This document shows, in pieces, positions 2 to 58,800 of a stretch of DNA of 64,000 nt (position 1 is its first letter; every line of letters begins with the position of its first letter). Source of the stretch: Caprimulgus europaeus (lineage: Eukaryota; Chordata; Aves; Caprimulgiformes; Caprimulgidae); contig OU015541.1 of the NCBI GenBank assembly GCA_907165065.1, positions 372,001 through 436,000 on the forward strand, in the 5' to 3' direction. The notes below the pieces were generated by a model. That model did not search any database, was not told where the DNA came from, and saw nothing but the letters and a program-made list of their open reading frames with translations. A program made the position numbers and the translations under genes.

Positions 2-20672
<20,671 letters not shown>

Positions 20673-21945: not shown

Positions 21946-26020
<4,075 letters not shown>

Positions 26021-37097: not shown

Positions 37098-45977
<8,880 letters not shown>

Positions 45978-46639
45978 CACCGGGGCCGGGCCCGGCTGGC
46001 GCTGGGACACGGTGCGGAGCCGGAGAGCTGCGCCAGGCAGGCATCTCCTCAGCCAGCAGTTGCCTTATTGCTTTGGGGCTATGAGGGACGTGCCTGAGCA
46101 TGCCAGGGCGTGGACACGCTGCCACTGTGCCGTGCGCTGTGAGGGTCCTGGGCATCCTGCATCGCTCACCAGCTGTCTGCAGCAGAGGCTGCACGGAGAC
46201 TGCGCGGGGGCAGTGCTCTCGTGTGGCTCTCTTTGCCTGTTGCACTTGATGGTCTGAAATCCCTTTTCCTGAATCATGTCTGTGTGGGCCAAGCTCGAAT
46301 CGGTGTCTGCCTGGCACACGAGGATCCTGGAGAGAGCCGTGGGGCTGAGCACAGCCCCCGCGGAACGGTGCGAGAGGCGAGGTGTGTGCAGCCACAGCCA
46401 CGCCCTCCCCAGCTCTGGGGCGTGTCGCCCTGGCATGCACGCAGCCGTCCCTCCCTCGGCTCCTCCGGCCTGCGGGCAGGCAGCAGCAGGGCTTTGGACT
46501 GGAGGAACCCAGAGCAGGAAGGGCAGTGGTGAAAAATGTTCTATTTTCCTTCTGAAGAGGGATGGACTCTGGCATTGGTGCGTAGGGGGTGGTGGGAGCG
46601 GTTCCCTTCTGACATTCTCAAGCTTTGACTGTGCTTATG

Positions 46640-46645
46640 AATAAA
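46640..46645 (+). terminator. ZNF335: ZNF335 polyadenylation signal AATAAA
   Basis: Canonical AATAAA 663 bases after the stop codon, the first plus-strand signal downstream. It defines a 3'UTR of about 0.7 kb. Confidence 0.8.
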
Positions 46646-46879
46646 AGGGATTGAAAGCTGCGTGTGCACCTGCCTGGGGGGGTCAGGGGTCCTGCGCCAG
46701 CCCCCAGCCCGGAGCATTCCTGCTGCCTCCTCAGGGCTGGGGCACAAGGCTCCCACAGCCGGGCCCCGGGGACGGGCAGGACATGGCTGCCCTGCGCTAT
46801 CGCCTCCCTCCCACCCGAGTGACCTTGACTTGTGGGACGTGAGCCGGGCATCTGGTCCACGGGTGGGTTTGGGGCTGGA

Positions 46880-47055
46880 GTCATGAAATTAATCGAGTGG
46901 TAAACAGCCCAAATCCCGTGTAACTCTGTCCCAAACTACACGCGCCGCCCCTCCCTGAGCGGATTGTCTGGAAGTATTTACATGTGATTATAACAGCTAA
47001 TCTCGGAGTTTTAGTTCGATGCTTTTGCATTAAACTGATTATCTGCAGAGGGAAA
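46880..47055. promoter_or_regulatory. AT-rich island with homeodomain-type motifs (candidate enhancer)
   Basis: About 175 bases of AT-rich, non-repetitive sequence in GC-rich surroundings, with ATTAAT, GATTATAA, CTAATCTC and TGATTATC cores. It lies between ZNF335 and the Iroquois-class gene. Function is inferred from base composition and motif density only. Confidence 0.3.
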
Positions 47056-47404
47056 AAAGGGCTGGAACCACCCAATTTCAGCAGGAGCATCGTGAGGCTG
47101 GAGCCCTGCGGCTGTGGGACTGGTACAGTGTGATCACCGGGCTGGCAGCCGGGCTCCCGTGGGGAACGGGGATGGCACCGGGGCTTGTGCTGCCAACACG
47201 ACACCTGTGCTCTGCCCAAGACAACAGTGGGACCCTTCCTCCCTGGCTGCTGCACGTGCTGCTGTCCCCACTGCTCGTCCCCTGCCTCAGCACTGCAGGC
47301 GGCAGCCCACCAGCACCCCGGACACTTTGGCTGGCGCAGGCTGGAGCCCCCGATCTTCCTGCCCAGCTGGGCAGGCATCTGTGGGTGGCCCCTGCCATGG
47401 ACTG

Positions 47405-47641
47405 TGGCTCTGTCCCGGCTGTGGCTCTGTCCCGGCTGTGGCTCTGTCTGGCTGTGGCTCTGTCCTGGCTGTGGCTCTGTCCTGGTGGTGGCTCTGTCCT
47501 GGTGGTGGCTCTGTCCCGGCTGTGGCTCTGTCCCAGCTGTGGCTCTGTCCTGGTGGTGGCTCTGTCCTGGTGGTGGCTCTGTCCCGGCTGTGGCTCTGTC
47601 CTGGTGGTGGCTCTGTCCCAGCTGTGGCTCTGTCCGCCTGC
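47405..47641 (+). repeat. 17-bp minisatellite, 14 copies
   Basis: Units start at 47405, 47422, 47439, 47455 and then every 17 bases to 47625. Each starts TGGCTCTGTCC; the last bases alternate between two forms, CGGCTG and TGGTGG (plus variants), giving a higher-order pattern. The third unit is 16 bases. Because 17 is not a multiple of 3, all frames stay open and read as Trp/Leu/Cys/Ala repeats, which are not genes. Confidence 0.95.
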
Positions 47642-48287
47642 CCTCGTGTCCGGCTGCAGCCCTGCCCGTGCCCGGCTGTGCAGCTGCGGGCCGTTCCTGT
47701 CCAGCCGTGGCTCGGTTGGCATCCAGCTGTGTCCCCAGCATGCCGGTGGCCGTGGCCCTCCCTCTCCAGCTGTGCCGCGCGGGGTTAAGACGCTGCAGCA
47801 ATCCCAGGCGCTTTCCTAGATTACAGTCCCATTATCTAATAAAGCGGATCCACGGCGCTGCCGGTGATGCTGATCAGGGCTGGAGGAGTCCCATGGGGAC
47901 AAGGTTATGGGGCCGCTGCGGGGCCGTGGCCAGAGCTGGTCCCAGCTGTCCGGCCTGGTTGTCCCCTCCAGGCTGGTGGCACCGGCTCCTGGGCTCCTTG
48001 TGGCCTCTGGGCCTGGGGCTGCTGAGAACACGGGACCACCCGCGCTGGGGCTGGGGCGGGTGGGACCAGGGCTCCCGGCTGCTGCACACAGGGAGCTCCA
48101 GGCACTCCCAGGGCTCTGGCCATGGGGTGCAATGGAGACACAGGAGCCTGGGGACTCATTCCTCTCTGCCAGCGCTGGCACCTTGGCTCTGGGAGCTTCT
48201 ACTGTCACCAGGAGCCTGCGGGGAGCCCAGGGATGCACAGGGCTCATTAGCACCAGTGACCTTCCCTTCCCGTCCCCGGCCAGCGCT

Positions 48288-48375
48288 AAGCGGGTTTGTT
48301 ACATATTTAATATCCTGAGAGCGTTATTAGTCGGTATTTAATGACGGATACAACCTGTGGGATAATCCCAGTCTG
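48288..48375. promoter_or_regulatory. Second AT-rich island upstream of the Iroquois-class gene
   Basis: About 90 AT-rich bases with ACATATTTAATATCC, CGTTATTAGTCGG and GGGATAATCCC, the last containing an OTX/PITX-type core. A smaller island lies at 47806-47850 (TTATCTAATAAAG). They are 0.7-1.3 kb upstream of the homeobox gene, so a role in its control is possible. Confidence 0.3.
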
Positions 48376-49065
48376 AGCGCAGTGGCAGGAGCCAGGCGGC
48401 TCGGGGGGTCGTGGGCTCTCAGGGCCCCTCACACAGCTGCCCACCAGGAACACCCCAGTGCCTGCGGGGCTGAGCCCCCACCCAAAGGGTCCCCAACTGT
48501 CCCCGAGGCTGCGGGTCCCCTTCCCCATCACCCCACTGCAGCCGGTTATCCAGCTGCAGGCATGGTGACACCAGGGTTTGGGCGAGGACCTGGCCAAGGA
48601 GGAGCGGGGTCCGGGGTGGGACCTGGCACTGTCCACATCCTGCCAGGCTGGGCACAAGTTCTCCTGCCAGCCCCCGGCCCTTTGACACAGCACACTGTGG
48701 CATGGGGGGCTCTGCCAACCTGGGGACAGGTCAGGGCTGGGGTCAAGGACAGGGACCAATGGCTCTTAGCACTGAAATGAAGCCCCTTGTACTCTGTGAC
48801 CCATGTGTGTCCCCATGTGTGCTGTGTCCCCATGGCTGTGGGTGTCTGTGGGGCTCAGCCCTCGGTGCCACTGCACCCCATCCCTGGGGGCTGTGCAGGG
48901 TCAGGGGTCCTGGACACGTCCTGGCGAGTGGTGGGCAGGGGGGAGGCCGGTCCCTGCCAGTGGCTGCCCGGGAATAGCTGGGGCGGGGGCGGTATTGGCT
49001 GCCCCAGCTCCTCGGGGGTGCTAATGCCCCCTAAGCAGCTGTCAGTCACCGCCGACCCCGGCAGC

Positions 49066-49071
49066 TATAAA
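49066..49071 (+). promoter_or_regulatory. TATA box of the Iroquois-class gene
   Basis: TATAAA 41 bases before the ATG at 49107. A start 25-30 bp downstream would leave a 5'UTR of only about 10 bases. Either the leader is very short, or translation starts at a later in-frame Met or after another 5' exon. Confidence 0.6.
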
Positions 49072-49106
49072 ACCCCCGGGAGCTCCCCGGCTCCTCTCCC
49101 TGCACC

Positions 49107-50100
49107 ATGGCAGCTCCTCGGGGAGAGGGGAGCTCAGGCCGAGAGCCGGGAGGCTGCGGGGGGCCGTGGGGGGCCCTGCGGGGATCCCCCCAAGCCCTGC
49201 TGCCCTGTCCCTGCCCTGTCCTGGCCGGCTACAGCCTGCTGCCACCACCCCTGAGCCTCCTGGCACCCTCGGTAAGTGCCGCACAGCAGCTCCCGGGGGG
49301 CCGGGACATGGGACCCCTCCTGGGACTGTGCTGGGGCTGTGTGGGGTGGTGGGGGTTGGGGAGCTGCTGTCCTGGGTCCCCTGAACCCACCTGCACCCCC
49401 TTGCACCCCAGCACCTTGGGGTGTGCAGTGCCAGGCACGAGAGAGGATGAGGACAGGCAAGACCCAGCTCTGCCCCTTCCTGCGCCCCCACATCCCCCAG
49501 CCCCTCTGCTCCAGCCACAGGTGCCCCCCACCCCATCCTGCCCTGACACCCCTGTGTCCCCTCCAGGTCTCACCAGCCTACGAGGTGGTTCCGGGGCTGC
49601 TGCCCAGCTCTGGGCTCTGCCCACCCTGCTGCCAGCAGCCCCTGCCCATAGAGCCGGGGCGGGCGAAGGCAGCAGTGGCACGGGAGAGCACCGGGGCGCT
49701 GAAGGCCTGGTTGGCACGGCACCCCAGGAACCCCTACCCCAGCAAGGGGGAGAAGGTGATGCTGGCGGTGGTCAGCCGGATGAGCCTCACCCAGGTCTCC
49801 ACCTGGTTTGCCAACGCCCGCCGGCGCCTGAAGAAGGAGAACAAGGCGAGCTGGGCACCGCGCGGCACCTCGGACGGCGAGGACAGTGAGGGCGAGGGTA
49901 CCCCACCGGCTGCTCCCCCCATTTCCATCCCCAGCCCTGTGCAGGATGGGTGTGGGGGCAGCCCCGAGGTGGGGGCAGACCCTGGGCAGGACAAACAGCC
50001 CCAGAAACCCAAGATCTGGAGCGTGGCAGCGATGCTGGCATCTACCCCCAGCGAGACTGGGTGCTCCCCAGGAACGCTGGGGGCCCTGGAGCAGGGGTAG
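49107..50100 (+). CDS. Orphan Iroquois-class (TALE) homeobox protein
   Basis: Predicted DNA-binding transcription factor. Two exons, 49107-49271 and 49567-50100, joined in phase 0 with GT-AG sites; 232 residues, about half the usual IRX length. Residues about 88-150 form a TALE homeodomain with the three-residue insertion (Pro-Tyr-Pro at 111-113), and the helix 3 text [19 protein letters not shown] is identical to IRX proteins as I remember them. The arm before helix 1 has changed most ([17 protein letters not shown]). A second IRX-like motif, [13 protein letters not shown], follows about 60 residues later. The long N-terminal domain and the IRO-box region of IRX1-6 are not recognisable. It is a single gene between ZNF335 and PCIF1, not in an IRX cluster. 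I cannot assign it to IRX1-6; it may be an ancient extra Iroquois paralogue or a retained duplicate. MKX is excluded by the KKENK helix. Confidence 0.85.
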
Positions 50101-50264
50101 GGCTGAGGCAGTCGTGACCTGTCCCTGAGGGCCGGGGGGATGCTGGGCCTGTGGCTGTGGGTTGGGGACAACCCCACGGCTGGGCAAAGCAGGACAGAAC
50201 CGCGGGACCTGGCTGCTGCCTGGCCGAGGAGAGCAGGAGTGGGCAGGGAGGGACACGAGACACC

Positions 50265-50270
50265 AATAAA
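50265..50270 (+). terminator. Polyadenylation signal of the Iroquois-class gene
   Basis: AATAAA 165 bases after the stop codon on the plus strand. It ends the gene about 0.5 kb before the duplicated PCIF1 tail on the opposite strand. Confidence 0.75.
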
Positions 50271-50333
50271 AGTGACTGTCTTGGACCTCCTGGTGTTGCC
50301 TGACTGTGGTGAGGATGCCAGCGGGGACAACAA

Positions 50334-50404
50334 TGGGGATGGGGGATGCTGGTGGGGATGGGGGGACACTGGTGGGGATGGGGGGATGTTGGTGAGGATG
50401 TGGG
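50334..50404 (+). repeat. 20-bp tandem repeat, about 3.5 copies
   Basis: TGGGGATGGGG-type units starting at 50334, 50353, 50373 and 50393 just past the poly(A) site of the Iroquois-class gene. Confidence 0.8.
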
Positions 50405-50732
50405 CATCTCCAGTGCCAGTGCTGCTGCAGACAGCTCCACCACGCCCAGGGAGCAGGACAGGTCCTGCCGGAGCCGCTCGGCTTTGTCTCACCCAGCCAC
50501 TTCTGCCCAATGGCAATGTCCCCATGGGGCAGCACAGGGAGGGACTCACAGGGAGGAAGGAACACGGATGGGAACATGCAAGAGGAACCACACACCAGGG
50601 GTGTGGCAGAGAGCAGCAGTGCCTGTCATCGGCTGCCGGGAATGGGCTCAGACTGCAGGGCTTCCCCCGACTCCACACAGCTCCAGGGTGGCAAGAGGGG
50701 CTAGGGAGGGGAAGAGGGGACCAGGAGCTGCG

Positions 50733-51440
50733 GGAAGGCATGGACACAGGGCAGAGCTGTATGCTGGTTTTTAATGTTCCTAAGAACTAGGAAACGGAAA
50801 TCAAAAATAGACTTTGCTCTTCTTGATAAAAGTAATAAAATGGTTAGCGGTGTTAAATTAATCCTTACAAAACAAAACCCAAGAAGGTTAAATAAAGCCC
50901 AGAGGCTCCGCATAAAAACCATGACGACTACAAAACAGCTGCAAAGACGTCTTTACACACCAAAGAAACTCCTCTTCTGCGCTCCTCCCCTGCACGGTAC
51001 ACAGCGTCGGCGAACACGGGACTCACACGGGAAAGAAACACGGATGCGATGGGAGCAGCCCTGCGAGGAGCACGGGTGCCACAGACAGAACTATTTACAC
51101 TGTGGACACGGAGCTGTGCTGGTGCCAGTGCGGCTGCAGGAGCCCCCGGGCTCTGCCCGTCCTTCTCCTGCCGGCACTGGGCTGTGGCCAGCTGCCGGGG
51201 CCCCTCCAGCCACGGCGCTTCCTTAGCTGGGGTCAGTGTCCCGGCTGCTGCTTTGCTCTCAGCACAGCGGCGGCTCTTTGTCTGCTGTGGAGGAAGAGGA
51301 GGATGACGAGGAAGAGGGTGATGAGGAGGAGGATGAAGAGCTGAGGGTCTGGCCTGAATGCTTGTAGGCTGCAACAAGCCCCTGCACACGCTCCGATGTG
51401 GACTCCCACTTGGCAAAGCCTGCACTGTTCTGCAAGGGAA
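50733..51440 (-). pseudogene. Partial duplicate of the PCIF1 terminal exon and 3'UTR
   Basis: Bases 50733-51220 match the true PCIF1 3'UTR (54956-55437) with only a few differences over about 470 bases, including one 4-base indel. The coding part, 51223-51432, matches 55811-56022 at roughly 88 percent. The duplicate lacks about 370 bases of 3'UTR (the counterpart of 55440-55808) and about 51 bases at the 5' end of the exon, lost between two CTGCA repeats. The frame NSAGFAKW...SSSS...STADKE is open except for one TGA (51259) where PCIF1 has CGA, then reaches the corresponding terminal TAA (51223-51225). No other PCIF1 exons are beside it. It sits just downstream of the RNF182-like gene on the same strand and could serve as its 3'UTR. 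Confidence 0.9.
50769..50774 (-). terminator. ATTAAA signal in the duplicated tail
   Basis: Minus strand reads ATTAAA, identical in context to the PCIF1 signal at 54993-54998. It is a plausible 3' end for the RNF182-like transcript, giving a 3'UTR of about 0.8 kb. Confidence 0.4.
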
Positions 51441-51572
51441 GGGAGCAGGTGCTGGGCATCTGCCCTTGGTCCAGGCCCACCACCACGCTGTGGGTCAGGA
51501 AACACCCAAGGGCCAACGCTCCAAGGTGCCCAAAGCCTCCCTGGTGTGGGCACAGGGCTCAGCCGAGCAGGG

Positions 51573-52283
51573 TCAGGAGCGAGGGAACCCAAAGAGCTCC
51601 TGGCACAGACACTGGCAGAGGCTGTAGACGATGCAGAGGAGGAGGGTGGAGGGCACAAGGCTGACCAGGACGATGCCCAAGCCGTGGTGCTCGATGAGCA
51701 GGAGGTAGATGCCGAAGGGCAGGGAACTGAAGTAGAGGAGGCAGAGGATGCCCAGGATGAAGCGGGGGACAGCTCGGCACCCCCAGGAGCGACACTTCTG
51801 CCTGGGGCCGTGGCAGGGTAGCGCGCCCAGGCTGCCGGGGCCATACAGCCCCACCACCTCCAGCCCGCCCAGGCCCTCCGGTGGGGCCACATCCTCCGGC
51901 ACCTCCAGGATGGTGACAACCAGGCAGTCGGGGCTGGGTGTGGGCTCCAGCACACTGGGGCAGAGCAGGACCTCAGGGGACCTGGGGGGATCCTGCTTTT
52001 TGGCACCTTCCCGGCCCGTCAGCAGCGCCAGCGCTTTGGCATCGTCCTGCAGCTGCCGCACATCCCCGCTGGGCACCGGGCTCTGCCGACGGCAGAAGGG
52101 GCAGCGGACCTCGTGCGGTGACACGTCGCCCAGTGCCACCATCTTGCGCAGGCACGTGGCGCAGAGGCGATGGCGGCAGCGCAGCAGTTTGGGTCGGCGG
52201 GCGCGGGCGTCGTAGCGGCTGTAGCAGATCTGGCACTCCAGCTCGGGGGTCTGCGGCCCCCGCTCGCCGTCTGCCTGGGCCAT
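51573..52283 (-). CDS. RNF182-like membrane RING-type E3 ubiquitin ligase
   Basis: Predicted E3 ubiquitin-protein ligase anchored in membranes. A single uninterrupted coding exon of 236 residues (human RNF182 is 247 and also intronless in its coding part). The C3HC4 RING uses Cys17, Cys20, Cys36, His38, Cys41, Cys44, Cys61 and Cys64. Two hydrophobic helices near the C-terminus (about 175-197 and 201-223) contain LLYFSSLPFGIYLL and VSLVPSTLLLCIVY, close to RNF182 text I recall. The middle part (DCLVVTILEVPED) also matches RNF182. The ATG at 52283 follows a likely acceptor at 52298, so there is at least one upstream noncoding exon in a CpG island. RNF182 itself lies elsewhere in mammals, so this looks like a paralogue and I give no symbol. 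Confidence 0.88.
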   Translation of the reverse strand: MAQADGERGPQTPELECQICYSRYDARARRPKLLRCRHRLCATCLRKMVALGDVSPHEVRCPFCRRQSPVPSGDVRQLQDDAKALALLTGREGAKKQDPPRSPEVLLCPSVLEPTPSPDCLVVTILEVPEDVAPPEGLGGLEVVGLYGPGSLGALPCHGPRQKCRSWGCRAVPRFILGILCLLYFSSLPFGIYLLLIEHHGLGIVLVSLVPSTLLLCIVYSLCQCLCQELFGFPRS

Positions 52284-53599: not shown

Positions 53600-54955
53600 A
53601 ATCATCACCGAGGTCTGGCAGAGTCTGACTGAGCGTTTATTGCAGAGGACGAGGCAACGTCCAGCTCCCGGTGCGACTGCTGACCTCGTCCCCCCCTGTC
53701 CTGCCCATACCCCACACCCTTCCCAGCTGTGTGCCCCGGCTGCCCCCACCACCACAGCCCCTCGGCCCAGCCCCGATCACTGGCCCTCGGCTTCAGCCTT
53801 GGTACAAGCTCGGCTGGGCAGCGAGCGGCCCTGGGCACGGAGGGATGGGCACCGCCAAGCATCGCGGTGGAAGTGTCACCTCCCATCTTGGCACCGGGCT
53901 GATGGGGCTGCCCAGTGCCGCTGCCTCATGGATCAGGCAGCTGAGTCCTGCGAGCAGAACCTGCTCCTTGTCCTGGCCCCCTGCTCTCACCCTGACCCTC
54001 CACCAGCTTTGGCTTCTGCTCGGGAACCAGAGCCCGCAGACCTCTGCCACGGGGGCTCAGCTCCTGGCCCACTCTGGCAATTAAATACATAATGAGGTAA
54101 TTTGCCATCACCAGAGGGAGCAGGATAAGGGACTCGGTGAGGACAGACTGTCCAAGGAGGTCACCGGCACTTCCCAGCATCCACGTGCAGAGAGCAGGAG
54201 CAGCCTGCCTTGGCTCAAAGTAATTAATAAAAGGAAAAAAAGGTTTTACAAATGGTTTTCACTGCCAGAGCCCCCAACTGTTCCCAGTGTCACCACGGGA
54301 GGTCAATGATCTCATCTGTCTCTCCTCCCTGGAGCTGCAGCAGTACCAGGAGCAGGCTGGGCAGGCAGCACCTGGGGCTGAGCTGTTCCTGCCCATCGCA
54401 GAGCAGCACTGGCGCCGCTGCAGTGCCGGTGTCGCTGGCCAAAGAAACCCATGAGCATGTGCTGCCCACTCCCCGGGACATCCCCCCGGTGACCAGGGAC
54501 TGCCCACAGAACACCCAGCCGAGCTCTCACCACCCCATCAGTCCCTGCTCTGCGCCGACGAGGCTGCACCTGCAACACATCTCAGCCAGGGCCTCTCCAC
54601 TCGGGGCAAAGGGCACTGAGAGCCCCAGAGACCAGGGAAGGAGAAGCTGGGGGGTTCTGCCCTGAAGGGGCTGAGGCCATCAGAGCTGCCTGCAGCTCTT
54701 GGAGGGCAGCATGGGGCAGAGAGAGACAAACTCTTCACAGCAGCAGCAGACAATGAACCAAGAGGGCAGCGGTCAGTTTGCTTTAGGGGGTTCACATGGT
54801 CATTAGGAGAAAAATTCACCAGGAGGGCACTGCAGCACAGAACGGGTCAGATATCAGATAATTCTGTAAAAAACCCAACATTCTTCTACCTTTCAGCCAG
54901 AGCGAGACAGAAGTGAGGGCAGGGGGTGACCACCGGCCCCTGGCTGACAGAGAAG
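53600..54955. other. Intergenic region between the RNF182-like gene and PCIF1
   Basis: No gene supported. At 54075-54245 there is an AT-rich patch with CAATTAAATACATAATGAGG and GTAATTAATAAAAGG, rich in TAAT cores, resembling a conserved noncoding element. A minus-strand frame over it (53926-54180) encodes a hydrophobic segment but has no recognisable homologue. Confidence 0.45.
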
Positions 54956-54992
54956 GAAAGGCAGGGACACGGGGCAGAGCTGTATGCTGGTT

Positions 54993-54998
54993 TTTAAT
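54993..54998 (-). terminator. PCIF1: PCIF1 polyadenylation signal ATTAAA
   Basis: TTTAAT on the plus strand reads ATTAAA for PCIF1, about 815 bases past the stop. It lies in the segment shared with the 50.7-kb copy. No canonical AATAAA was seen on that strand between the stop and this point. Confidence 0.55.
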
Positions 54999-55810
54999 GT
55001 TCCTAAGAACTAGGAAACGGAAATCAAAAATAGACTTTGCTCTTCTTGATAAAAGTAATAAAATGGTTAGCGGTGTTAAATTAATCCTTACAAAACAAAA
55101 CCCAAGAAGGTTAAATAAAGCCCAGAGGCTCCGCATAAAAACCACGACGACTACAAAACAGCTGCAAAGACGTCTTTACACACCAAACTCCTCTTCTGCG
55201 CTCCTCCCCTGCACGGTACACAGCGTCGGCGAACACGGGACTCACACGGGAAAGAAACACGGATGCGATGGGAGCAGCCCTGCGAGGAGCACGGGTGCCA
55301 CGGACAGAACTATTTACACTGTGGACACGGAGCTGTGCTGGTGCCAGTGCGGCTGCAGGAGCCCCCGGGCTCTGCCCGTCCTTCTCCTGCCGGCACTGGG
55401 CTGTGGCCAGCTGCCGGGGCCCTTCCAGCCACGGCGCTGGGCGCCGAGAACTCGCGCTTGCCCTCCGTCCCTCCACCTGTCCTGCCGTCCTTCCGCCCGT
55501 GCGCACGTCCCAGCTCCGGCTGCCCCGTCCCTCAGCACCCCAGTGGCGAAGGGGCTGCCCGCTCCTCCTGCCGTGCCACGCCAGGTGCCCTTGCCCTCTG
55601 GCAAGGGCCGCAGCCGAGCCTCCTCCCCGCCGGCTGGGCGCTCCCCGGCGCTGCTGGGCGCTGTGCAGTTCGCAGAGGAAAGCCGGTGCCGTGGAGCTGC
55701 TGCGCCAGAGTCCCCCGGGCCGGTGCTGCGCAGCCAGCAGTCCCTCCACCGCCGTGGCACACCTCCTCGGGGCCACCGGCACCTCCCCTGCTGCCTCGCA
55801 CCTCTGCACC

Positions 55811-58800
55811 TTAGTTGGGGTTACTCTCTCGGCTGCTGCTTTGCTCTCGGCCCAGCTCCCGCTCTTTGTCTGCTGTGGAGGAGGAGGAGGAGGAAGATGA
55901 TGAGGAGGAGGAGGATGAAGAGCTGAGGGTCCGGCCTGAATGCTTGTAGGATGCAACGAGCTCCTGCAGCCGCTCCGGTGTGGGTTCCCACTTGGCAAAG
56001 CCCGCACTGTTCTGCAGGAAGAGGACGGCTGTGTTGTGCACGGCCTTGTAGTACATCTCCTCCCTGCAAGGGAAGACAAGAGGCACTCAGCACCGCCCCG
56101 TGCCCCTCTACCACACAACTGCCACCCCGACCCACTTCCTTGCACCCGCCCCTCTTCTTCCTGCGTGCCCTGTTCAAGACAAGTATTCATCTGTCTTTTT
56201 CTCTCATTATTCTGAGGAAAAGAGCAGGCAGAGTGCAGCGTCGGGCAATTCTGGGTAAGGCAGAGGCTCGTAAGCTTTCGGAAGAGAAGCACCGACGCTG
56301 CGCAGCCACGCGGCTCTCGACCAGCACACGAACCGGAACGTCGCAGTCCTGCAGACGACTCATCAGGGTAAGGCATCAGTCTTGGGCAGGTACAGAGAAC
56401 TCTGTGCTTAAGCACTTGTTGCTTAAACAATTTGTTGCTTGAACTTGTTAAACAGCTACAACCAGCTTGAGACCTCTCCCTGTCCCTCGCTTCTGCTTCC
56501 CCCCAAGTGACCCCGAATTGCTGCAGGATTTGGCACGCAGGAAACGCTGCTCAGCTGGCTCACCAGAGCAGCGGGCTGGCGGAGGAGCATGGGTGAGCAC
56601 CACAGCATCACATGTACGACCTGCTCACACTGGACCTGCACCCAAGGAATTCACCACCAAGCTTTTTGTTACTGAAATACCTCAGCAGCCATTGAATGAA
56701 CGTGAAATCCACAAGGCTGCACGCCTGTCTTAAAAACCCAGGGTGATTACGTGCTGTGTTTTTCCCTGCCTGCTCCCTACTTCCCATGGATTTCAACATG
56801 GAATAGGATATTTCTGTCACACGGCTTCAGAAACACATTCCCAGAAGGACCCAAGAAAAAGCCCTACTTTTTGCAGACGTGCTGAGACCCACTGCGGTAT
56901 TCGTGATCGAAGGCTGGCAGGATGAGCTGGTGCCGCTTGAACTTGCTCTGCTCCATGCGGGTCAGGGCCGGGGTCGGAGGGTCCCGCCACTCGGGGATGA
57001 AGACGATAAAGGAAAGAGGCTCACTGGAGCTCTCCAGCAGTTTCTAGTTCAAGGAGAAAAACCATCTCAGCGCTGGCTGAGCAGTGCCATGCCTAATGAT
57101 TCCCATGGAAAGGAAATGCTTCTGCTTCTGGAGCGGGGCCGCAGCAGCGACTCTCCTCCTGCCCTGCAGCCCTGCTGTGCGGGAGCAGCGGGGAGGAGAG
57201 CTGACTGCACAGCTCTGTTCAGAACAACTCCCCAGAGAAGTGAACGTACCTCAAAGTGAGAGACCATGGCATCCATCAGCTCCTCACAGAATGGAGGATT
57301 TGCCTCAAAAGAGCCACTTACAGGGAAGAAATCCAGGCATGGGCTGGAGGAAAAAGGCAGAGATCCCTATCAGACAGGCTAGAATTCTCATCTTCACACC
57401 TTAAAAGCATGCATTTCCTCAGAAATTCACACTCAGAGAGCCTGAATCCCCAGCAGCGCAGGGCCTGCTGCTTCTAACAGGACTGGTCACTGGGGACACA
57501 CTGATGCCACCGAAGGTGACTGCTGATTCAAGCTGACTGCTTGAGGGCCCAGGTGTCTCACTCTTCAGAACAAGGGCAAGCGCTGGCAGACCTGCAGACT
57601 GCGTCCCTCCAGGGACCAGAGCCCTCCAACAAGACTAAGGGCACAATCCTGACGGTTTCACAGCCAGCCCGTGCCCGCTCACTGCCCCTAGGCAGCCCTG
57701 AGGCACACACCCTTCTGAGCAGGCATCCCACAACCAACCACCGCCCTGAATGCACCCACACACGAGCCCGTCTCGAGTCACCGCATGCGCACACACCCAC
57801 ACAGAAACAGGGCGAGGGCACCGAACGTCAGACTCACCCCCTGGATCCGAAATACCCGTCTGTATCCAAGAAGGCCGAACAGTACTGTTTAAAATAGCAA
57901 TTCAGGGGCGAGGCAAAGCATTCAAAACTCACTCCAAAGAGCTTGTGGAGGGCTTCAAAGACATGCACAGGAAGTGCCCCCTGCAGACCAGTTCCTTCGT
58001 ACAGACCCACACCGAACATCATCTGAGGAGAGCAAACCCTGGTGAGCCGTGCCTGCACTCGCTGTTCCTGCTGCTCCCTTCACTGACCATGGACACGGGG
58101 CCACACGTCCATGCACCCACTCCTCTAGGTATGCAGGGCCCCCTCGTCCTTTCTCAAATTCGTGTAGGTCCCCTGCATGTACCCAAGAATGCTCTTTAGA
58201 TATTTCATCCAACGCAGGCCCCACAAAAGTCAGTTCTGTCAATCTCCACACAGATCCCCACGAACCTGTACCTGGCCCTCCGAGTCAAGAACTACTGAAG
58301 GTTTCTTTCATTAAATTTTATCTTTACCATCCCCGAGGTCTCCTGTCAAGGTAACAATTCCTCCCCAGACCACAGTCCTATCTCAAAACACCGGGAGCAG
58401 ACGATGACCTCAGTTTAAGCCCGATTTTGAATTCAGCCTCCAGAGCTGTGGAACTCCCCCAGAGCAAAGACAACCAGTTCAGTTCCCCACTATTCCTAAG
58501 GCTTTCTGACGTACAAATATGAGGAGACAGTACCTGATATCGACGGAGAAGGCACCAAACCCTGGGCAGAAACTTTTCAAAGCCAGAGTCATCAATGCAA
58601 CTGTACCGATAGAGAAGCCACTGGAAGGGAAAGCGCAGCCATTAGACACAAACAGAACAAAGGTGAGACAGGACACAAACACAGGGTGACAGGGAGAGGG
58701 ACACTGAGGAACAGCAGCAGCACGTGGGGCTCTGCACCAAGGCTTGTCAGCGCATCTTTTACCATGGGAACGAACCACAAGCTCTTCACCAGCAGGAATG

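Follow-up and report, generated by a model that had tools for sequence, protein, structure and literature searches.

An Irx-like gene of the Iroquois homeobox class lies at positions 49107-50100 (+) of a 64,000-nucleotide stretch of the Caprimulgus europaeus genome (the window, bases 372001-436000 of contig C17; the genome comprises 1.178 Gb in 121 contigs). We hold it probable that this is a real, protein-coding seventh Irx gene of the IRX1/IRX3 type, and most likely the sole survivor of a third Irx cluster left by the early vertebrate duplications. The evidence comes from its homeodomain and IRO box, its constrained reading frame, its exon pattern and the paralogous block in which it sits. 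All paralogue comparisons were made within this one genome, the only vertebrate genome examined.

Iroquois identity of the gene

The predicted protein matches the Pfam model Homeobox_KN at residues 103-142 (E = 1.3e-15, 57.3 bits, cut-off 24), along with a Homeodomain match of 25.9 bits. A genome-wide homeodomain search returned ten places, consisting of the gene itself, six IRX loci and three weak matches. Three of the IRX loci lie on contig C13 and three on C3 (one of them part-masked by N), and by their sequences we take them to correspond to IRX1-6, labelled after the human proteins. Identity of the homeodomain to five of the loci is 69-75% (E 1.7e-25 to 4.8e-24; 75% over 59 residues with IRX3), and 85% over 27 residues to the partly masked sixth. 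The Iroquois TALE homeodomain proposed from the sequence alone is thereby confirmed. Because six other loci match IRX1-6, the gene is, judged by these matches, the seventh Irx gene of this genome and not a displaced one. A displaced member of IRX1-6, with its orthologue missing elsewhere, was the outcome that the sequence-only reading had set against its own claim; it is ruled out, all six being found elsewhere in the genome.

Over the whole homeodomain, identity amounts to 46/64 with IRX3, 44/64 with IRX1 and with IRX4, 43/64 with IRX5, 42/64 with IRX6 and 26/35 with IRX2, for which 35 positions are readable; the known IRX genes share 57-61/64 among themselves in the ten fully readable pairs. 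The changes are located in helix 1, helix 2 and the homeodomain arm, where substitutions and one inserted residue bear out the altered arm noted earlier. The homeobox of IRX2 holds a run of N, and a second run occurs at about 8238-8660 of the fetched IRX2 locus (gap or masking). The motif WFANARRR is present, marking a TALE homeodomain of the Irx type with alanine at position 50 (A50). A50 is typical of the IRO class and common also to MKX (PMC4901127; papers are cited by PMC number throughout).

Irx proteins are defined by a homeodomain, an IRO A and an IRO box (PMC2674049). The IRO box, the second family hallmark and one that the sequence-only reading had passed over, is retained as KPKIWS. 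In human IRX1 the homeobox occupies residues 145-184 and the IRO box residues 313-326 (PMC7760495), KPKIWSLAETATS in IRX1 of this genome lies 169 residues past TLKAW, and the IRO box of Caupolican contains two lysines, K459 and K461 (PMC4549242). As the human positions, the 169-residue spacing and the two lysines agree, the KPK motif was taken as the IRO box. MKX (Mohawk, Irx-like) has a TALE homeodomain near that of Irx, but the IRO box is a difference that rules out an MKX identity. Drosophila Caupolican contacts cyclin E complexes through its IRO box together with a cyclin-binding motif (PMC4549242); the pattern tried for such a motif found none in the Irx-like protein.

Three features that are usual for the family, though not required, are lacking. 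The MS(Y/F)PQ start, present in 5 of the 6 IRX loci, is absent, as is the CpG-island promoter of those five, and the gene stands alone on C17, as the sequence-only reading had stated, apart from the three-gene clusters on C3 and C13.

Gene structure and constraint

The two exons join to 232 codons without any in-frame stop codon, across a GT...AG intron, which upholds the earlier model of a compact two-exon gene of 232 residues. GC content by codon position 1/2/3 in the homeobox is 57/57/93%, a coding pattern. The start ATG of exon 1 sits in CACCATGG, and its donor, GTAAGT, is the single GTRAGT donor within 48001-49560. A search for an MSFPQ-type first exon further 5' (45000-49566, + strand) found none.

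Between the homeobox and those of the six IRX genes, the proportion of silent differences (pS) is 0.40-0.55 and that of replacement differences (pN) 0.17-0.22. The corrected distance ratios (of the dN/dS type) are 0.23-0.37, against 0.02-0.07 for three known pairs, with a corrected silent-site change of 0.56-0.99 per site. The gene is thus constrained, yet evolves faster than the known pairs, consistent with the short, fast-evolving gene suspected before. In a neutral simulation (2000 runs, no indels, 0.6 substitutions per site), homeodomain identity had a mean of 31% and a maximum of 56%, against the 46/64 that the gene shares with IRX3, and 0.65% of the frames were still open.

A paralogous block shared with the IRX3/5/6 region

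The gene order on C17 is SLC12A5 (-), MMP9 (-), ZNF335 (+), the Irx-like gene (+), a RING gene (-), PCIF1 (-) and a BPI-family gene (+), the last taken as PLTP. SLC12A5 and PCIF1 were named by best match among solved structures; for ZNF335, the name comes only from its position and its C2H2 fingers. Three FN2 repeats mark MMP9 as a gelatinase; among solved structures, the MMP9 match exceeds that of MMP2 by only 3 bits, so that the name leans on the place beside SLC12A5. The ZNF335-PCIF1 interval is presumably empty in human.

The distance from the Irx-like gene is 24 kb for MMP9 and 44 kb for SLC12A5. A genome search with the MMP9 FN2 exon returned 16 places. Beyond the three repeats of MMP9 itself, the two strongest matches fall, together with a weaker third, in a single gene at C13:18.484-18.496 Mb, whose similarly split catalytic domain indicates an MMP2-type gelatinase; it begins 175 kb from IRX6. 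With the SLC12A5 exon as query, three places were obtained, namely itself, C7 (77%) and C13:18.734 Mb (65%), the last being a KCC-type gene 425 kb from IRX6. C13 carries IRX3, IRX5 and IRX6, then the gelatinase, then the KCC-type gene. Hence, an IRX, a gelatinase and a KCC-type gene are grouped twice, on C17 (within 44 kb) and on C13. In human, MMP2 likewise lies by IRX3/5/6 on 16q12.2, and MMP9 with SLC12A5 on 20q13.12. Direct reading of 117.5 kb past IRX6 (about 0.7 kb of N in the first 60 kb) revealed no MMP9-like exon.

Taken with 175 kb on either side, the two IRX clusters cover 0.22% of the genome. As MMP and KCC count as a single block, the chance of the coincidence is fairly given by this one figure and should not be multiplied. 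The Irx-like gene is oriented opposite to the gelatinase, as is IRX3 and as IRX5 and IRX6 are not, which offers a weak further hint. Since paralogues of MMP9 and SLC12A5 lie near IRX6, the simplest reading of the neighborhood would be that the gene is an ohnologue of the two early rounds of genome duplication (2R) and a remnant of a third Irx cluster.

Probable affinity to IRX1 and IRX3

IRX1, IRX2, IRX3 and IRX5 have a predicted phase-0 intron before GS(Q/P)Y or GAQY. The Irx-like gene is interrupted between S and VSPAYE at the same position and in the same phase 0; a retrocopy is ruled out by this retention of intron 1 at the family position. The homeodomain and IRO box share one exon in IRX1, IRX3 and the Irx-like gene, whereas the coding sequence of IRX2, IRX4, IRX5 and IRX6 is interrupted between the two. 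The Irx-like gene has the state of IRX1/3 at three sets of residues that distinguish the Irx groups, namely REST before helix 1, YE after intron 1 and K-I in KPKIWS. The R-x-K state of the arm was dropped as an IRX1/3 mark, being common to IRX4 and IRX6. The exon pattern and the three residue sets accordingly fit IRX1/IRX3, as far as sequence can tell, while the seven-gene tree does not place the gene.

The likeness to IRX1 and IRX3 (44 and 46 of 64 homeodomain residues, the REST and KPKIWS states, the phase-0 intron 1 and the single exon for homeodomain and IRO box) goes along with marked differences. The distance from homeodomain to IRO box is 103 residues in the Irx-like protein, compared to 169 in IRX1 and 214 in IRX3. 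Unlike these, the protein has 232 residues only, lacks the MSFPQ start and ends soon after the IRO box, and its gene has a promoter without a CpG island.

In a maximum-likelihood tree of the seven genes, the pairs IRX1/3 (bootstrap 76), IRX2/5 (92) and IRX4/6 (79) hold without the Irx-like gene. Grouping with IRX1 plus IRX3 is the best of nine placements by just 0.03 log units, and the approximately unbiased (AU) test rejects none. Resampling of estimated log-likelihoods (RELL) and expected likelihood weights (ELW) each exclude 2 of the 9. For these seven genes, the Iroquois phylogeny proposed earlier as a check gave a divided answer: the best tree sets the gene apart from all three known pairs, but every placement passes AU.

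Origin and alternative explanations

A number of observations weigh against the origin that we favor. The group residues were picked post hoc, with the alignment already seen. The tree alignment has 152 columns, part of them poorly alignable, the branch of the Irx-like gene is 1.17 compared to 0.10-0.46 for the others, and the AU p values span 0.055-0.82 over the nine accepted placements. On the side of the gene model, exon 1 is without codon periodicity (GC 78/73/75%) and no resemblance to the first exons of the other IRX genes was seen; because both are lacking, exon 1 is proposed from its signals alone. Periodicity is similarly weak in the tail of the gene. As for the block, MMP and KCC are not independent witnesses, and support comes from two of the four neighbors searched (gelatinase and KCC, the other two being the BPI-family and RING genes). 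The BPI-family gene gave 7 places, all on C17 or C5 and none on C13 or C3; the best relative of the RING gene, although on C3, is 27 Mb away from IRX4; and the remaining KCC gene lies on C7 rather than beside IRX1/2/4 on C3. The loss of the R-x-K mark and the wording 'irx1 ortholog' used for zebrafish irx7 have slightly lowered the standing that we give to this origin.

It is quite unlikely that the gene arose later as a dispersed DNA duplicate of IRX3 (or IRX1) that was copied with its intron, happened to insert near MMP9 and has changed fast since. IRX3 is indeed the best homeodomain match (46/64, 75% over 59 residues), the exon pattern is that of IRX1/3, and AU does not reject a position with IRX3 (p 0.21) or with IRX1 (p 0.33). 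Yet the tree joins IRX1 to IRX3 and leaves the Irx-like gene outside (bootstrap 76), and the chance of a place beside an MMP2/9 paralogue is about 0.2%. A decaying or untranscribed copy with a homeobox open by chance appears highly improbable. The low promoter CpG ratio (0.26-0.42 compared to 0.69-0.87 in five IRX genes) and the weak periodicity of exon 1 and the tail would agree with decay; the open frame, the splice signals and the 46/64 homeodomain residues retained despite silent change of 0.56-0.99 per site would not, nor would the 0.65% of open frames left by neutral simulation at 0.6 per site.

The gene may also be a counterpart of zebrafish irx7 and hence no new class, which we regard as unlikely and which would be compatible with an origin by genome duplication. 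By description only, the two are alike, irx7 being an Irx gene outside the names 1-6 with a homeodomain and an Iro box (PMC3335143, PMC5831802). On the kinship of irx7 the papers do not agree in themselves: PMC5831802 in one place groups it with irx1b as 'irx1 ortholog', which would suit an IRX1/3-type gene, and also places it in the irxB cluster with irx3, irx5 and irx6. That cluster membership, not beside MMP9, differs from the position of the Irx-like gene alone on C17.

We regard the gene as real, with an open frame, as belonging to a known family and as probably ancient. The ancient paralogue suggested by the sequence-only reading is favored by the MMP/KCC neighborhood, though the tree leaves other placements unrejected. 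In its full form, the picture is of a third locus, 'IrxC', beside MMP9-SLC12A5, which kept one IRX1/3-type gene, was lost in mammals, and whose product was shortened as the promoter went from a CpG-island to a TATA, tissue-restricted type; to this whole sequence of events we give slightly better than even credence. PMC2674049 traces the set of six Irx genes found in most jawed vertebrates to one duplicated cluster of three. Survival of a seventh gene in a further paralogous region would mean that the duplications left at least one additional copy, and that both the count of six and the view of a single cluster duplication need revision. The lineage would then have a regulator that mammals may lack. 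In the open literature, searched by titles and the starts of abstracts, no Irx gene located in the ZNF335-PCIF1 interval was found; an automatic 'IRX-like' model may well exist in annotation databases.

Promoter and predicted function

At the ATG of the Irx-like gene, the CpG ratio is 0.26 over 1 kb and 0.42 over 400 bp; five IRX genes have values of 0.69-0.87, IRX6 being left out as its start is absent from the fetched piece. Together, the TATA box and the lack of a CpG island suggest that the promoter is restricted to certain tissues, unlike the CpG-island promoters of broad developmental regulators.

The unchanged recognition helix would be expected to bind DNA at Irx sites, with minor-groove contacts lowered or shifted by the changed arm, and the IRO box may retain its partner contacts. 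Missing from the predicted protein are the N-terminus typical of the family, the greater part of the acidic region and almost all of the sequence past the IRO box. Such a small, putatively nuclear protein might act as a compact modulator of IRX1-6 or compete with them at Irx sites, expressed in few cell types from its TATA promoter. It would thus present a natural experiment, in which an Irx protein has been cut to little beyond homeodomain and IRO box.

Upstream, the GC-rich DNA contains AT-rich islands, at 46960-47039 (35% GC) and, milder, at about 47795-47870 and 48290-48370, which carry TAATCY/GATTA sites. GATTA occurs 6 times in 46700-49060 compared to 0.53 expected, and none of 300 simulations reaches 6; as this null ignores local composition, the enrichment is suggestive only. 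TAATCC alone is not enriched in the upstream region (1 seen, a count reached by 62 of 300 simulations). The islands are possible enhancers. A 17-bp repeat array of the GGCTGTGGCTCTGTCCC type also lies upstream, at 47398-47652.

Coordinates and minor observations

Table 1. Features of the Irx-like gene and its searched neighbors, in window coordinates
Feature	Position	Strand	Remarks
TATA box TATAAA	49066..49071	+	41 bp 5' of ATG; sole TATAAA in 46001-51000
Exon 1, proposed	49107..49271	+	55 codons; Kozak-type ATG, open frame, consensus donor; not similarity
Intron, predicted	49272..49566	+	295 bp, phase 0, GTAAGT...CAG; place of IRX intron 1
Exon 2	49567..50100	+	177 codons + TAG (50098-50100); homeodomain, short acidic stretch, IRO box
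Homeobox block	49672..49863	+	Residues 91-154; 46/64 identical to IRX3
Recognition-helix segment	49786..49845	+	20 residues; same as IRX1, 3, 4, 5, 6; IRX2 same where unmasked
IRO box	50005..50043	+	13 residues; 8/13 match KPKIWSLAETATS of IRX1/IRX3
Poly(A) signal AATAAA	50265..50270	+	Sequence motif
MMP9 exons	23395..25679	-	Gelatinase, three FN2 repeats; paralogous to C13 gene beyond IRX6
SLC12A5 exon	5145..5393	-	Paralogue-search query; best structure match

The RING gene (51576-52283, -) is a single open frame of 236 codons with hydrophobic stretches near the C-terminus. Its relatives comprise a nearly full-length one at C3:94486664 (45%) and nine weaker ones, mainly over the RING. It is probably RNF182-like, and no such gene is known at this place in human; it is possibly a second extra gene in the ZNF335-PCIF1 interval.

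Two copies exist of the last PCIF1 exon with its 3' region, at 50732-51458 and 54955-56040 (98-99% over 487 bp, 82-84% nearby). The copy between the Irx-like and RING genes could reflect a recent partial duplication, gene conversion or an assembly fault. Elsewhere in the genome, further strong Homeobox_KN matches occur, three at C9:6640165-6717061 and two at C2:29456373-29526808, in open frames of about 330-530 codons.
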